64,000 nt of DNA from Alphaproteobacteria bacterium (GTDB lineage Bacteria; Pseudomonadota; Alphaproteobacteria; Rs-D84): contig JAFZZS010000013.1 in the NCBI GenBank assembly GCA_017615655.1, positions 1-64,000 of the forward strand. Direction: 5' to 3'. This document shows positions 21,322-28,492 of the stretch, piece after piece. The notes under the pieces were generated by a model. It saw nothing but the letters and a program-made list of their open reading frames with translations. It was not told the origin of the DNA and did not search any database. Numbering within the stretch: the first letter of the stretch is position 1; every line of letters begins with the position of its first letter. Both the position numbers and the translations under genes were made by a program.

Positions 21322-21347
21322 AATAACCGCCCATTTGGGCGGTTATT
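21322..21347. terminator. Bidirectional terminator between the 20890 gene and metK
   Basis: AATAACCGCCC, loop ATTT, GGGCGGTTATT: 11 bp, placed between convergent stops. Confidence 0.75.
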
Positions 21348-22359
21348 ATTTATTCATTACCCCAGATATACCTTTCTTGCATAATTTGGTGTAAATTGGT
21401 TTGTCTAAACCATATGCCCGGATAAGTGTGCGCGGTTTTTGATTGCACCACAGGTTAGAAAAAGAAACGATGCCGTTTTTGACTGTTTTAATCAGGCCAC
21501 TAGGCAGTTCCGCGCGTCCGATGCACGAAGACAGGTAAACGAAACATTCATCGTTGTCGGTCAAATTTTCGCAGGCTAAGATACGGGCATACAGGTTCAG
21601 TGTTAAATCAGCCTTGCTGCCATCTTTGGTCCATGGGGCCCCCCCACCAATTGGACATGCCGTAGAATAGAAATCACATGCCAATTTTCGCCCTGTAATT
21701 CCACAGTCTGCGATGGAACCATGGTAAGTATACCGTCCAGTACCATTTACGATGGTATTTAACGGTTTTTCGCCTAATACAGATATAATAAAATCCGTCA
21801 GATCTTCCTCTTGTAACATTGGAATTGCAACAATCGCGGTTTCTATTTTATCATCGTTCAATGTGATTTGTGTCTTGATATCTATTCCAAGATTATCAGA
21901 CTTAATGGCCTTTTCATACAAGGCATCATTCAGTTTTCGGCTTAAGAATAATTCTCTATTTATTTTGCCTTCACCTTGGCAAGCATACCCAACAAACACA
22001 CCTTGATCACCCCAGCCATCAGCCTCGACCCCTTGGGTAATATCAGGCGATTGTAGGCCAATCAAATTGATAATTTTGATTTGCGCTGGATTAATAACAT
22101 AATCACCCCACAAAGCAGAATACCTTTCATTATACCCAATTTCCGCTAACGCAGTTTTTACATATGTGGTTAAATCATCTAATTTTGCACTAGTGCCGAT
22201 TTCGCCACCAAGGACGATAGTGTTACCTTTGATCATAACTTCAACGGCGTATCGTGCATGGGGATCTTGTTCGATTATTCTGTCCAATATATAGCTGGAA
22301 ATGTAATCAGCTGTTTTATCTGGGTGTCCAATTGACACTGCTTCTGCTGTTCTTTGCAT
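21346..22359 (-). CDS. metK: S-adenosylmethionine synthetase (divergent, compact)
   Basis: Makes SAM from methionine and ATP. Residues 10-14 GHPDK, GGEIGTSAK, ITGRKLACDFY, and GGGAPWTKDGSKAD are recognisable MetK signatures. At 337 residues it is about 45 shorter than typical enzymes, and the usual GGGAFSGKD loop reads GGGAPWTKD. The start follows AAAGGAG, which is buried in a hairpin. The long, structured leader with a SAM-II-like riboswitch is strong contextual support for the function. Confidence 0.9.
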   Translation of the reverse strand: MQRTAEAVSIGHPDKTADYISSYILDRIIEQDPHARYAVEVMIKGNTIVLGGEIGTSAKLDDLTTYVKTALAEIGYNERYSALWGDYVINPAQIKIINLIGLQSPDITQGVEADGWGDQGVFVGYACQGEGKINRELFLSRKLNDALYEKAIKSDNLGIDIKTQITLNDDKIETAIVAIPMLQEEDLTDFIISVLGEKPLNTIVNGTGRYTYHGSIADCGITGRKLACDFYSTACPIGGGAPWTKDGSKADLTLNLYARILACENLTDNDECFVYLSSCIGRAELPSGLIKTVKNGIVSFSNLWCNQKPRTLIRAYGLDKPIYTKLCKKGISGVMNK

Positions 22360-22451
22360 AATTTACTCCTTTGGTTTTTGCAAGATGAACCAAAGGTGGA
22401 TTGTGGCGTTGTACCACGCATAACGAACGTTAAAAAACGGAAAATAAGCAT
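22275..22451 (-). CDS. Possible leader ORF between the SAM-II element and metK
   Basis: ATG 22451 lies eight bases after AAGGAG (22465-22460), the site controlled by the riboswitch. The frame runs 58 codons (start MLIFRFLTFVMRGTTPQSTF) and ends inside metK, overlapping it by 85 bases out of frame. Codons for PQSTFG are the same bases that form the anti-SD and alternative pairings. The riboswitch RBS directly serves this ORF, not metK, so it must be translated if the switch controls translation. Confidence 0.5.
   Translation of the reverse strand: MLIFRFLTFVMRGTTPQSTFGSSCKNQRSKLCKEQQKQCQLDTQIKQLITFPAIYWTE
22368..22396 (-). promoter_or_regulatory. Hairpin sequestering the metK Shine-Dalgarno
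   Basis: Minus-strand RNA CCUUUGGUU (22396-22388) pairs perfectly with AACCAAAGG (22376-22368), 9 bp around an 11-base loop, and buries AAAGGAG, the metK ribosome-binding site. Confidence 0.65.
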
Positions 22452-22459
22452 AATAACAA

Positions 22460-22513
22460 CTCCTTGTTTAGTCCATTTATAAGGCAGGACAAGTCAGGTT
22501 AAATCCACCTTTA
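22460..22513 (-). promoter_or_regulatory. SAM-II-type riboswitch
   Basis: The minus-strand RNA carries the SAM-II core segments in order: GAUUUAACC, AUAAAUG, CUAAA, and then the ribosome-binding site AAGGAG. P1 forms from AAGGUGG (22511-22505) with CUGCCUU (22487-22481). CUUGU in the loop can pair with ACAAG at the ribosome-binding site, as the SAM-II pseudoknot does. SAM-V is a close relative and cannot be excluded. Its position ahead of metK fits SAM feedback. Confidence 0.85.
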
Positions 22514-22522
22514 TCGGTTGCC

Positions 22523-22551
22523 ATTATATTTTATTTTCGGTCATTATTCAA
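22523..22551 (-). promoter_or_regulatory. metK promoter
   Basis: Minus strand TTGAAT (22551-22546), 17 bp, TATAAT (22528-22523); transcription would begin just before the riboswitch. Confidence 0.7.
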
Positions 22552-22840
22552 GTGCTATTTAGCAAAATGTATACGGTTTAGTTTATCAAATATATCGCAT
22601 TTATATAAGTAGCAGCCTATACACAGTAAATATTTGTAGGGTTTTTGCGTATATTACACATGAAAAAAAACTGATGGTGGGTAAATAAAGGTTGCGTTTC
22701 AAAGAATGCATCGGGCACAAGCCCGATGGTGATTATTATTAATAATTAATTATTAATAAATATTAAAAACAACTTGCGTGCGTGCGCGCATTTTTAGTAC
22801 GATTTTTACAAAGGTATGAAGGAAAGGGAGCAAACCTATC
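22552..22840. other. Intergenic region between metK leader and the large surface protein
   Basis: No gene. Contains a hairpin CATCGGGC/GCCCGATG (22709-22728) without a clear T-run, an AT palindrome (22736-22759) and a short GTGCGCGC stretch. A promoter for the gene at 22841 must lie here, but I cannot fix it. Confidence 0.5.
22736..22759. repeat. Perfect 24-bp AT-only palindrome
   Basis: Arms TTATTAATAATT and its complement, abutting. Eight bases after the 22709-22728 hairpin. Confidence 0.6.
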
Positions 22841-25800
22841 TTGAAACGCGTGTTTTCTGTGGTTTTGGCGTGTTTGTTTTGCACGTTTGTTACAAACGTG
22901 GCAGTTGCTGCGTGCGCATCAAACCAAATTGATGTGTCGGGTGACGGATCAAGTTGCCAAACGTCTAAATTTGAGTTGACAACAACCAATTTATCCGCTG
23001 GTGATTCCTTTAAGTTTAGTATGGCGGCCAAGGGTACGTTTTATGTCGATTGTGGCGACGGTGGAACGTTATCGGGAACAAATGCATCCGGCAAAACAAT
23101 TTCCAAAAGCACGAATGTTAGTTCCACGTATACTTGTGAATGGGCATCAGCGGGTGCGCATACAATAAGGTTTGGTGGGGTTGCAACAGAATATCCCGTT
23201 CTCGTTTTAGATATTACATCGGATAAATCGGCAATCGCTTTTGATAATTTGATAAATGACAATGCGGCGAAAATTGCATCGATATCGGGTTCTTTTGTTG
23301 AATTGTTTCCACAAATTGGTACCAATGCCAGTCAAATACCACAGTTTATCAACACGTTCAAAAACGCAACCAATTTAACAACAATACCATCAACTTTGTT
23401 TAATGGCTATACGGGTGGCGAACATGCGGACTTTATGTTCTATGGTACCTTTACGGGTTGTACGGGGTTAACATCAATGCCCGAATATTTATTTAGCACA
23501 ATTACCACCCCAGCAAGTTCCATGTTTTCCCAGACATTTGAGGGTTGTACAAACATGTCGGGTTATATACCACCGTCAACATTTATTGGGCTTGTTGCCA
23601 CGGGGCATCCGTCCGCAGCAGCACTGTGGTATGATACGTTCGAAGATACAAATTTGGTGACAACTTGTCCGTCTGGCACCCCACAATATATTACCGGATA
23701 TGAAGGAAACACTAATAACTCTACATGGAATGGTGCGATTTCGTGTGGTTGCGCACCGGGGGCACGTCTTGAAAATGGTGTGTGTGTTTGTGATACATTC
23801 ACTGTGACGACAACGAATTTATCTGCTAACTATGAAATGTCGTTCTATCTGTCTGCGGCTGGTATTTTTGCGGTTGATTGGGGTGACGGCAGTGCTATTG
23901 AAACAATCTATCGTATTGGCAATACAAATTCTGCACAAACATATTCACATACCTATACAACGGCTGGCTCATACACAATCGGCCTTTGTGGCACCACGCC
24001 AACCGCATACCGTATTCCCGACGCCAGTAAAGATAAACCACCGATTACCGATACAACGATTAGTTTTTCAAAAGGAAACGCCGGTAGTTGTAAGGTTGCG
24101 TCAATCGGGGGCTCGTTGGGTGCATTGTTTCCGACATTGAATAATGGTGCAAGTGATACGGATTTCCCGCGATTTTATAAGACGTTCCAAGAGTGTGACG
24201 ATTTGACCAGTATTCCATCTGGGTTGTTTGTTGGGGTTACGGGTTCTGCCAGTGACATGTTCCGTGAAACGTTTGACAAGTGTGACGGGATAACCACGAT
24301 TCCGTCAAACCTTTTTGCTGGGGTATCGGGTGGTGGAAAGGGCATGTTCCGTGCGGTATTCAACGAGTGTACATCTTTGACCGCAATGCCGGAAAATTTG
24401 TTTAGCGGTGTTACCAGAGCGTATGAGAATCAGTTTAAGTACGCTTTCTATAAGGATACGTCAATGACGGGTTATATTCCACCGTCAACATTTAGCGGAC
24501 TTATTGCAAATGGCAGTCCAACCGCAACCAATATGTGGCAAAATGCGTTTGGCACCCAAAACACATTGGCAACAAGTTGTGATAGCTTTACCGGAATGAC
24601 GGAATTTACAACTGGGTATAAAACGCTATGGAACAACAAAGTGTCATGTCAACCGGCAACGTGTCCGGCGGGGAAAATGCTGATTAATGGTATGTGCAGT
24701 GATCCGGGGTTTACAGTCACAACAACATCAAACACAACCAGTTTGGTTTTTTCATTGGCTGCCAAGGGAACATTCTATGTTGATTGTGGTGATGACGGAA
24801 CATTAACGGGCAGCGGTGTCACTGGTACACAAATTATACGCAACGGTACCGGATCATCATCATATACGTGTACGTGGGGATCTGCCGGTGCACATACGGT
24901 GCGGTTTGGCGGTGTCGCAATTGCGTACGGAACTGATTCTTCTATCACATTCTGGCGTTCCAGTAATGGTACTCAGGCGAATATTGCATCTGTTACCGGT
25001 TCGTTATCATCGGTGTTTCCACAACTTGGTACGGGCAGTGGCGAATTACCTGTATTTATGAATACATTCAAGGGTTGTACAAATATTACAAGTATCCCAT
25101 CCGGATTATTCAGTGGCATCACTGATGGGGAACAGAATATGTTTTCCAGTACGTTTGAGGGTTGTACAAATCTTGCCACGATACCAAGTGGATTGTTTGA
25201 TGATTTAGAAACAAGTGCCCAAAACATGTTTGCAAATACGTTTAATGGTTGTACCAGTTTGACAACAATACCATCCAATATGTTTGGTGATATCAGTAAT
25301 GGGGAAACCAGTTTATTCTATGGAACATTCAAGAACTGTACGGGTATTACATCGATACCATCCGATTTGTTCACCAAGATTACCAGTGCGGCAGACTTTA
25401 TGTTCAGTGAAACATTTAGTGGGTGTACAAATTTATCTGGCTATATTCCACCAACCACATTTGCGGGACTGATTGTAAACAACAGTCCAACCGCTACGGA
25501 TATGTGGTTAAATACATTTAATGGTACAAATGTTGCGACCAGTTGTGAATCATTTACGAATATGCGTCAATATATTACAAATTACGAAACTGCGTGGAAT
25601 GGTAAGGTTTCTTGTAAAGAATCGTCAAACAGATGTACTGGTGCAACATATTACGATGAAGATAATGTTAATGCAGATGCAAATGGTTGCGTTGCGTGTC
25701 CATCGGGCTACACATACAATACCGAAAATTATAAGGATTATGTTGAACAATGCGAAATCCATTGTGCGTTGGGAACGTATGTTGCAACATCCGGTGGTGC

Positions 25801-28492
25801 ATGTGTCGCAGTTGACAGTGGATACTATGCACCCGAAGCCACATATGCCTATGGTGAAACAGGAACTCAACAGGCGTTGCAAACATGTACGGGCGCAAAA
25901 TATCGTAATGATTATAACGAGTGTATTGATTGTCCGAACGGGTACACTTATAATACTGAAAATGGAAAAACATCAATCAATCAATGTCAAATTCGTTGCA
26001 GTGCCGGTCATTATTTGGCGCATGCTGGCGATTCAAGTTGTTCTGAGGTTGGTGACGGATATTATGCAGCCGCGGAAACATTGAACTATGGTTCGGTTAG
26101 TAGCCATACGCATTGTCCAAATCCCGAAGAAACCACCGGAACAATGACGGCGGAAAGTTCCGCGGAATGTTCGTTGTTATGTACGGGTGCAACATATTTC
26201 GATTCCAGCACAGATAGTTGTGTCGCATGTCCATCGGGATACACTGCGCACACAATATCGGGTAAAACATCCGCATCACAATGCCAAATTGCGTGTTCTG
26301 CTGGGACATATTTGGCCGCAGCAGGTGATACAAGTTGTATTAATGTGGGATATGGATATTGGGCGGCTGCATCAGCGGTAAATTATGGTTCAACTGGCAC
26401 AAGAACAGCATGTTCATCGGGTGCAATAACAAATTCAGACCATGCGGGCAGTGCATCAGAATGTTTGGCCGTGTGTACTGGGGCAACATATCGTAATTCT
26501 AATAATCAATGTGTTGCATGTCCAACAAGTTATTCTGATAATCTGGATACCGGAAAAACGTCTATAAATCAATGTCAACATCGGTGTGATGCTGGCACAT
26601 ATATGGCAGAATATACACCCGTTGAATATTTGCAGAGTAACGCTATGGGTCAGTTTATTGATACAGGGTATTCTGTAACATCAACAAACGTCAAAATTAA
26701 TATTGTTGTCGGAACACCGAGTACAACTACAGGCGATGTCGGTAACTTTTTTGGTAATATTTATTTCGAGGGTGGTTTCAGTTCAAATTACAAGGGTAAT
26801 AGATTTGGTTTATGGTTGCGTAATGATACAGAAGGTGGCAGTAAGGCGCAATCGGCTAATATGACATTTTCTGCAGATGTTAAATATAGCATAGATTATA
26901 CAGTTACGGGATCAGGGTCTGTAACTGGTACATTGCGGGTCAATGGCGGTGCACAGGCATCTAAGGATCAAGGTAGCACGTATTTTAATGACGAAGGTAA
27001 TACGATAAAATTATTTACTAATGGAGCCGCATTTGTGAACGAAAATAATAATACTGAAACTCGTTGGGGGGACGCTTTATTTAATGGACGTATATATTCA
27101 TTCAAATTGTGGGACGGTGGTAACACAGATGCGTATTTAAAATTGGATTTGGTGCCCGTTCGCCGTAATAGTGACAATGTTCTGGGATTTTACAACCGTG
27201 TCAATGGCGAGTTTTACCCGAACTCTGGTACGGGGACATTTACATCCGCTACTTGTAGTGTAGATATTGATGATGCGAGTGATGCGTGTGATGCAATCGC
27301 ATCGTGCAGTCCTGTTGGATATGGATATTATGCAAATGAAAATTATACAAACTATGGTTCCAATGGTGTTCGTAACCAGTGTCCAAATGGTGCGGGAACA
27401 ATTGTAAACGGTGAACCGATACATAATGCAACAAGTATTTATAATTGCGAAGGTATAAATCCATGTACCGGTGCGACTTATCCAGATTACACAACAGGTA
27501 TCTGTACAGCATGTCCAACAGGGTATGATGCAGACACCACAAATAACAAAGAATCAATCAGTCAATGTAAAATACATTGTAATGCAGGATATTATGTGTC
27601 GCAAGAACACGACTCGTCCTGTACTGCCGCCGATAATGGATATTATATTGCGGCAAATGATGTGAAGTACGGACAATACAGCGAACCGTCCAGGTGTACT
27701 AATGCACCGGGACATGCTACATATTCTGGTAATGCGACAACTAACAGTTGTCCATGGCTTTGTGATGCCAAGTATTATGCCGTTAATGACGCGTGTATTG
27801 ATCCTGGTGTTGGGTATTATTCGGCAGATGGTGAAAATGAACGCCACGCGTGTACCAATACAAAACCCTCAAACAGTTCATATAGTGGTTCTGCATCATC
27901 AAATAATTGCCCATGGGCTTGTGACACTGGATACGGAGAAAGCAATGGGGAATGTATCGCGGGTGGTGTATGTATCGGCGCGACATATCTTGATGGTGAT
28001 GTGTGTACGGCATGTCCAACGGGATATGATGCAAATACGATGTCTGGCAAAACATCGGCCAGTGAATGTCAACTTATTTGCCCCGTGGGAACATATATGG
28101 CAACGGCGAATGGCGCATCATGTACAGATGTGGGTGTCGGTTATTGGTCACCTGGTGGCGTGGTAAGTTACGGCGCAACCAGTAATCGTACCGCATGCGC
28201 GTCTGGATTGACCACGGTTGGATATGGACACGGTGCAGATGCATTGGATGATTGTGGGCGCAAATTACATATCAACAATCATATCATCTATGCCAAGACA
28301 ACAAAACCAACCACGCCTGCGTTAAATATTCAACCCGAAAATGGTTCGGTATATTATATCGGGGCCAGTGACAGCGATCACACTCTTACGCCATTACATG
28401 TAACACAGGGTAATTTGCAATATACCTTGTTTGACGACAGTATTTTATACGGTGAACGCGATTTTGAAACCGACACGCGTATTATACCTTAA
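22841..28492 (+). CDS. Very large secreted surface protein: PKD-like/BspA-LRR modules, ConA-like insert, Cys-rich repeats
   Basis: 1,883 residues. It starts with TTG, about ten bases after GGGAG, and a signal peptide ending VAVA (about residue 23). Three copies of a module follow, each a beta-sandwich start (AAKGTFYVDCGDGG) and BspA-type leucine-rich units (LTTIPSTLF, CTGLTSMPEYLF, GYIPPSTF) at about 30-300, 316-605 and 620-910. From about 928 come Cys-rich repeats (CTGATY...CVACPSGYT...SQC) broken by a LamG/concanavalin-like domain (about 1257-1473, EYLQSNAMGQFIDTGY). The tail from about 1805 has no cysteine. It looks like an adhesin or host-contact protein; no C-terminal anchor is recognised. 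Confidence 0.85.
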   Translation: MKRVFSVVLACLFCTFVTNVAVAACASNQIDVSGDGSSCQTSKFELTTTNLSAGDSFKFSMAAKGTFYVDCGDGGTLSGTNASGKTISKSTNVSSTYTCEWASAGAHTIRFGGVATEYPVLVLDITSDKSAIAFDNLINDNAAKIASISGSFVELFPQIGTNASQIPQFINTFKNATNLTTIPSTLFNGYTGGEHADFMFYGTFTGCTGLTSMPEYLFSTITTPASSMFSQTFEGCTNMSGYIPPSTFIGLVATGHPSAAALWYDTFEDTNLVTTCPSGTPQYITGYEGNTNNSTWNGAISCGCAPGARLENGVCVCDTFTVTTTNLSANYEMSFYLSAAGIFAVDWGDGSAIETIYRIGNTNSAQTYSHTYTTAGSYTIGLCGTTPTAYRIPDASKDKPPITDTTISFSKGNAGSCKVASIGGSLGALFPTLNNGASDTDFPRFYKTFQECDDLTSIPSGLFVGVTGSASDMFRETFDKCDGITTIPSNLFAGVSGGGKGMFRAVFNECTSLTAMPENLFSGVTRAYENQFKYAFYKDTSMTGYIPPSTFSGLIANGSPTATNMWQNAFGTQNTLATSCDSFTGMTEFTTGYKTLWNNKVSCQPATCPAGKMLINGMCSDPGFTVTTTSNTTSLVFSLAAKGTFYVDCGDDGTLTGSGVTGTQIIRNGTGSSSYTCTWGSAGAHTVRFGGVAIAYGTDSSITFWRSSNGTQANIASVTGSLSSVFPQLGTGSGELPVFMNTFKGCTNITSIPSGLFSGITDGEQNMFSSTFEGCTNLATIPSGLFDDLETSAQNMFANTFNGCTSLTTIPSNMFGDISNGETSLFYGTFKNCTGITSIPSDLFTKITSAADFMFSETFSGCTNLSGYIPPTTFAGLIVNNSPTATDMWLNTFNGTNVATSCESFTNMRQYITNYETAWNGKVSCKESSNRCTGATYYDEDNVNADANGCVACPSGYTYNTENYKDYVEQCEIHCALGTYVATSGGACVAVDSGYYAPEATYAYGETGTQQALQTCTGAKYRNDYNECIDCPNGYTYNTENGKTSINQCQIRCSAGHYLAHAGDSSCSEVGDGYYAAAETLNYGSVSSHTHCPNPEETTGTMTAESSAECSLLCTGATYFDSSTDSCVACPSGYTAHTISGKTSASQCQIACSAGTYLAAAGDTSCINVGYGYWAAASAVNYGSTGTRTACSSGAITNSDHAGSASECLAVCTGATYRNSNNQCVACPTSYSDNLDTGKTSINQCQHRCDAGTYMAEYTPVEYLQSNAMGQFIDTGYSVTSTNVKINIVVGTPSTTTGDVGNFFGNIYFEGGFSSNYKGNRFGLWLRNDTEGGSKAQSANMTFSADVKYSIDYTVTGSGSVTGTLRVNGGAQASKDQGSTYFNDEGNTIKLFTNGAAFVNENNNTETRWGDALFNGRIYSFKLWDGGNTDAYLKLDLVPVRRNSDNVLGFYNRVNGEFYPNSGTGTFTSATCSVDIDDASDACDAIASCSPVGYGYYANENYTNYGSNGVRNQCPNGAGTIVNGEPIHNATSIYNCEGINPCTGATYPDYTTGICTACPTGYDADTTNNKESISQCKIHCNAGYYVSQEHDSSCTAADNGYYIAANDVKYGQYSEPSRCTNAPGHATYSGNATTNSCPWLCDAKYYAVNDACIDPGVGYYSADGENERHACTNTKPSNSSYSGSASSNNCPWACDTGYGESNGECIAGGVCIGATYLDGDVCTACPTGYDANTMSGKTSASECQLICPVGTYMATANGASCTDVGVGYWSPGGVVSYGATSNRTACASGLTTVGYGHGADALDDCGRKLHINNHIIYAKTTKPTTPALNIQPENGSVYYIGASDSDHTLTPLHVTQGNLQYTLFDDSILYGERDFETDTRIIP

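Follow-up and report, generated by a model that had tools for sequence, protein, structure and literature searches.

A compact aptamer related to SAM-II and SAM-V, with a candidate strand-exchange leader, upstream of metK in gut Alphaproteobacteria

The metK gene encoded on the minus strand of the window analysed here (64,000 nt of contig JAFZZS010000013.1, from an alphaproteobacterial genome) is probably controlled by a translational OFF riboswitch, in which bound SAM would close two Shine-Dalgarno sequences (SD1 of a leader ORF and SD2 of metK) and a strand exchange would open both. We lean towards placing the aptamer in a new subclass of the SAM-II/SAM-V superfamily whose 5' strand, in one clade, would act as an anti-anti-SD for a second ribosome-binding site more than 100 nt away, so that a single ligand event would gate both SDs together with a coupled leader ORF; the adjacent-SD and two-SD forms would coexist, separated by a single transition. 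The sequences, pairings and conservation reported below are observed; what we infer is the identity of the ligand as SAM, the direction in which control runs, and the respective shares of strand exchange and leader translation.

Organization of the metK leader and its aptamer

The locus comprises the following features, all on the minus strand:

22523..22551, minus: promoter-like TTGAAT - 17 nt - TATAAT; the RNA 5' end would fall just before P1
22460..22513, minus: aptamer of 54 nt, a compact H-type pseudoknot related to SAM-II/SAM-V
22506..22511, minus: P1 5' arm AAGGUG (partner 22486-22481), also part of the strand pairing with the distal element
22481..22486, minus: P1 3' arm, from pair counts and the leader-type alignment
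22501..22503, minus: third strand UUU, equivalent to SAM-V U8, U9 and U10 (mapped via the SAM-V crystal structure text)
22496..22498, minus: P2a 5' side, CCU
22487..22492, minus: P2b 5' side UUGUCC, pairing with GGAC (22474-22471) and AA (22469-22468)
22471..22474, minus: P2b 3' side, GGAC
22467..22470, minus: UAAA, equivalent to SAM-V U47 (adenine contact), A48, A49 and A50 (amino-acid contact)
22462..22464, minus: P2a 3' side AGG, within the SD of the leader ORF
22460..22465, minus: SD1 AAGGAG of the leader ORF, read from the sequence and partly inside P2a
22275..22451, minus: leader ORF (58 aa), crossing the anti-SD hairpin and running 82 nt into metK in a different frame
22392..22402, minus: distal element AAUCCACCUUU, complementary to the P1 arm strand AAAGGUGGAUU (22512-22502)
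22388..22396, minus: anti-SD hairpin 5' arm CCUUUGGUU, each pair kept in 36-37 of 37 leaders
22368..22376, minus: anti-SD hairpin 3' arm AACCAAAGG, 100% identical across 37 leaders
22366..22371, minus: SD2 AAGGAG of metK, 6 nt ahead of the metK AUG (22359)
21346..22359, minus: metK, S-adenosylmethionine synthetase, 337 aa (Pfam PF00438, 2e-22; PF02773, 9.7e-14)

By its Pfam matches the deduced MetK is a divergent yet recognisable SAM synthetase, and its gene lies 107 bases from the aptamer. The promoter-like site was the best of six in the scan (10/12 matches) and is weak on its own, because shuffled sequences gave 5.9 such sites. In the divergent region that separates the metK leader from a large repeat-rich surface-protein-like gene (22841-28492) lies a strong 8-bp hairpin, CATCGGGC-TTGT-GCCCGATG (22709-22728), present as a single copy in the window.

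Aptamer members are 51-54 nt long and share a core with the ligand-contacting letters of SAM-II and SAM-V. Across 40 distinct sequences, 97.5% of the P1, P2a and P2b cells hold standard pairs, versus 31-53% with slid partners, and both P1 and P2a show compensatory changes: the P1 pair 22509-22483 occurs as UA, GC, CG and AU, and the third P2a pair as UA, AU and CG. P2b is invariant in every aligned member, which is no test of covariation, since its letters were fixed in the pattern used to retrieve most members. According to the crystal structure paper on SAM-V, whose pocket is described there as very similar to that of SAM-II, U47 and U8 contact the SAM adenine, A50 contacts the amino acid, the U20:A48.U9 triple lies at the sulfonium, and U19:A49.U10 forms a second triple. 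The counterparts of U47, U8, U20, A48 and U9 are U22470, U22503, U22491, A22469 and U22502, and those of A50, U19, A49 and U10 are A22467, U22492, A22468 and U22501, respectively; overall the pocket letters equal SAM-V U8-U10, U19, U20, G21, U47 and A48-A50, and UAAA is invariant in alignment A1. Because the contact letters have exact counterparts, the predicted ligand is very probably SAM.

The element combines the P1/P2 pseudoknot and conserved SAM pocket that characterize SAM-II (the pocket being mapped through the SAM-V text) with the SAM-V trait of an SD inside P2a, where SD1 contributes its AGG to pairs with CCU, one of which is replaced by AU or CG in relatives. Such pairing, also proposed for part of the SD in SAM-V and in translational metX SAM-II, may control translation from SD1. 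The P3 stem-loop that follows P1 in SAM-V is absent, only 8-12 nt separating the P2b strands, P1 3' arm included. The initial annotation had called the element SAM-II, and its pocket and topology are SAM-II-like; membership by Rfam model does not follow, and the element is better described as a separate compact relative of SAM-II and SAM-V. Rfam 15, at gathering and at permissive thresholds, placed no SAM family at the window element, and the covariance search that had been suggested gave no match to it at E<=10 with any Rfam model, SAM-II and SAM-V included, even on 76 bases. The element did not reach the RF00521 gathering score (36 bits), and that of RF01826 (41 bits) was reached neither in the window nor in relatives. 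RF00521 matches in relatives were at chance level except in one genome (G053); weak SAM_alpha and SAM_V matches in relatives were disregarded, as they lie elsewhere in those genomes and unrelated control genomes give them too. None of the outlying aptamer members scores in Rfam, whereas a true SAM-II control (L028) does; conversely, R1, a covariance model built from the aligned aptamer members, does not detect this control and gives the window aptamer, which belongs to its training set, 69.2 bits.

Distribution and the two metK architectures

At least 80 sequences from gut Alphaproteobacteria carry the aptamer ahead of metK; most of the genomes compared are metagenome-assembled, and the sequences are related. 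Among 201 genomes of the order, 57 matched a pattern of the aptamer core, as did more than 100 stretches of GTDB genomes, by their titles mostly rumen and gut Alphaproteobacteria, and one viral contig. R1 matched 62 of 191 order genomes at E<=0.05, a few weakly; beyond the order, four more families of the class gave strong matches, again mostly directly ahead of metK. R1 matches below about 27 bits were treated as chance or unsure, among them L209 (with a broken P2b), L212 and the weak matches in the order; two others at 24 bits (L210 and L211) appear real by eye. In a sample of 59 genomes of relatives, all 13 same-order genomes with metK also carry the aptamer.

Most of the sampled same-order genomes (G000-G052) lack MetK, as judged by the absence of a PF00438 match, many of them being more than 90% complete, while 13 have it; genomes without MetK may import SAM. 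The aptamer also stands directly before a group of unnamed proteins of about 145-195 aa with the signature LFxNxDL... (L042, L043, L046, L049, L052, L053, L054, L058, L080, L089, L118, L132, L203, L207 and L210), two of which gave no significant Pfam match when searched; in L210 a similar N-terminus is fused to a SprT-like domain. Two aptamer copies each occur in the relatives G088, G118 and G122, and the window genome has, at a contig edge (G000:C6:1-84, L019), another metK end of 28 aa with 71% identity.

Two arrangements of aptamer and gene are found. In the direct type, the majority form (47 distinct metK relatives), the aptamer SD stands right before the metK AUG; in the leader type (37 distinct leaders, window included), the AUG lies 83-136 nt past the aptamer. 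The MetK tree gathers all leader types into one clade (support 99/93) nested among direct types, and its sister rows (L009, L010 and L055) are of direct type with unrelated P1 arms (CGCGG), so that neither the AAGGUGG arm nor the leader occurs outside this one clade. On this tree, the leader architecture arose once, and the conservation seen among leader types consequently comes from a single clade. One direct-type metK with its aptamer (L066:6141-7195) lies on a contig classed as viral in IMG/VR, which also encodes ParB/methyltransferase-like and recombinase-like proteins, judged by eye from translations; this metK may therefore travel on mobile elements.

Mutually exclusive pairings and the proposed switch

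The initial annotation had proposed three mutually exclusive pairings in this leader, and all three are present. The P1 arm strand AAAGGUGGAUU (22512-22502) is the exact complement of the distal element AAUCCACCUUU (22402-22392) over 11/11 bp, and a 9-bp helix joins CCUUUGGUU (22396-22388) to AACCAAAGG (22376-22368), the strand that holds part of the metK SD. Positions 22396-22392 of the long-range duplex also belong to the anti-SD hairpin, and positions 22511-22506 to P1, so that the duplex excludes both. The arm:element complementarity exceeds chance: an uninterrupted Watson-Crick run of 9-11 is found in 35 of 37 leaders (10-11 in 34 of them), whereas among the 47 direct-type relatives the run is at most 6, even with 120 nt of metK included, and when the tails of the 37 leaders were shuffled by mononucleotide (1,850 shuffles) it never exceeded 9, being mostly 4-5.

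Element and hairpin arms are near-invariant, a result in favour of the initial annotation, with 99-100% column identity in the 37 leaders versus 74% for other columns of the leader ORF. Two-sided covariation of the 11-bp duplex, as opposed to the compensatory changes seen in P1 and P2a of the aptamer, is absent among these leaders; only single changes compatible with G-U were found, such as the element substitutions in L008 (A to G) and L105 (C to U), which turn Watson-Crick pairs into G-U and keep the duplex. The P1 5' arm is identical in 37/37 leaders although the opposite side varies (22481 is U, C or A in 18, 14 and 5 leaders, and 22485 is G or A), and both P1 arms vary among the 47 direct-type relatives; the 5' arm is therefore held by something besides P1.

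Folding predictions returned both alternative states. The RNAalifold consensus of the 37 leaders forms the long-range duplex with the arm free and the full anti-SD hairpin with the arm masked. The probability of the long-range duplex, calculated with the arm free and leaving out ligand energy and pseudoknot terms, is 0.825 in the window, with a mean of 0.62 over the 37 leaders and values below 0.2 in a sizeable minority of them. Under the same terms, SD2 accessibility is 0.75 in the window (mean 0.59) and falls to 0.32 (mean 0.25) when the aptamer part is removed.

In the mechanism that we consider probable, the 5' end of the SAM-bound RNA would adopt the P1/P2 pseudoknot, in which P2a would occupy SD1 and leave the leader ORF untranslated; with the P1 arm thus occupied, the distal element would be available for the anti-SD hairpin, which would close over SD2 and leave metK untranslated as well. 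When SAM is absent, the P1 arm and the adjoining AUU third strand would pair with the distal element over 11 bp, which would dissolve the aptamer and free SD1, and at the same time open the anti-SD hairpin and free SD2. Ribosomes translating the leader ORF would then cross the hairpin and help to hold it open. A transcription terminator at the anti-SD hairpin was rejected, since there is no U-run and the site is absent from the terminator scan list.

The leader ORF itself could provide an alternative explanation, in which the aptamer governs only this ORF, translation of metK is coupled to that of the leader through ribosomes that melt the anti-SD hairpin, and the 11-nt complementarity does not serve as a switch. 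The leader frame is indeed open past SD2 in 37/37 members, the other two frames being stopped in 30/37 and 28/37, the leader of L007 is in frame with metK, and ppe2 of M. tuberculosis is a known gene that depends on a riboswitch-controlled uORF. We nevertheless consider this unlikely, because coupling accounts neither for a P1 5' arm that stays frozen while its P1 partner varies, nor for the AAUCCA half of the element, which lies outside the hairpin and shifts in codon phase, yet is 99% conserved. The leader ends, relative to the metK AUG, at +41 (18 leaders), +82 (15), -6 (2) or +14 (1), or is fused in frame (L007); in 33/37 the stop thus falls 41 or 82 nt into metK, ill placed for termination-reinitiation, and simple reinitiation is accordingly unlikely in most members. 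The element is translated as STFG, NPPLV or IHLW, depending on frame, and these three codon phases indicate that the RNA is conserved and not the peptide; together with a frame-dependent C-terminus they rule out a conserved leader peptide. The likely routes to metK are melting of the hairpin by the passing ribosome, plus strand exchange. As dozens of relatives of both types have been sequenced, these two contributions are separable by simple reporter tests.

It is very improbable that the leader works like that of S. meliloti metA, with SD1 recruiting the 30S subunit for a start at the metK AUG and the hairpin merely positioning it: the close metA precedent, in which the SAM-II SD is required and translation begins at AUG2, 74 nt downstream (PMC9373788), lends this idea some ground, but metK owns a strong, invariant SD2, 6 nt from its AUG and covered by the anti-SD hairpin. 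Scarcely credible, finally, is a plain aptamer that switches only the adjacent SD, with leader and complementarity inherited without function, which would suit a leader type that arose only once but not the near-invariance of element and hairpin amid otherwise diverging leader ORF sequence and aptamer-metK distances of 83-136 nt.

Comparison with known systems

The present data add an uncatalogued compact SAM-type aptamer, common among gut Alphaproteobacteria, and what appears to be a natural before/after pair, in which an adjacent-SD riboswitch would have been rebuilt to reach a distant start via strand exchange. In topology, pocket letters and gene context the element is akin to SAM-II and SAM-V, and it would work in the same way. 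In the literature searched, which took in little of the subscription literature, a search for described SAM-II variants of this kind brought up only the Bacteroidetes/marine 'SAM-II long loops' motif, and nothing there couples strand exchange by an aptamer to a second anti-SD hairpin.

With SAM-II (RF00521, SAM_alpha) the element shares the H-type pseudoknot, the GAUUU third strand, the CUUG and CUAAA core and the occurrence in Alphaproteobacteria; the true SAM_alpha L028 reads GAUUUGA...CUUGC...CGCUAAAAGG. It differs in being shorter, in its GUCC/GGAC P2b and in lacking the long 3' pairing element, its P2a having only 2-3 bp; the same lack is part of what sets SAM-V apart. With SAM-V (RF01826) it has in common the predicted role of translational OFF switch, a length of 52-55 nt, the SD in P2a and equivalent contact residues, but it precedes metK, whereas SAM-V precedes metY or bhmT.

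A SAM-II switch that acts on a distant start is already known from S. meliloti metA, where, according to the accessible text of PMC9373788, an aptamer SD and AUG1 are likewise followed by a true gene start further downstream (74 nt); there, however, AUG2 is in frame, a terminator lies between the starts, and that text describes neither an aptamer strand exchange nor a second anti-SD hairpin. The B12 riboswitch of M. tuberculosis ppe2 similarly gates a translated leader ORF on which its gene depends (PMC11260477). The ppe2 gene, however, has no SD of its own and relies on termination-reinitiation at an AUGA overlap (PMC11260477), whereas the metK gene of the window has SD2 and a leader stop far downstream.
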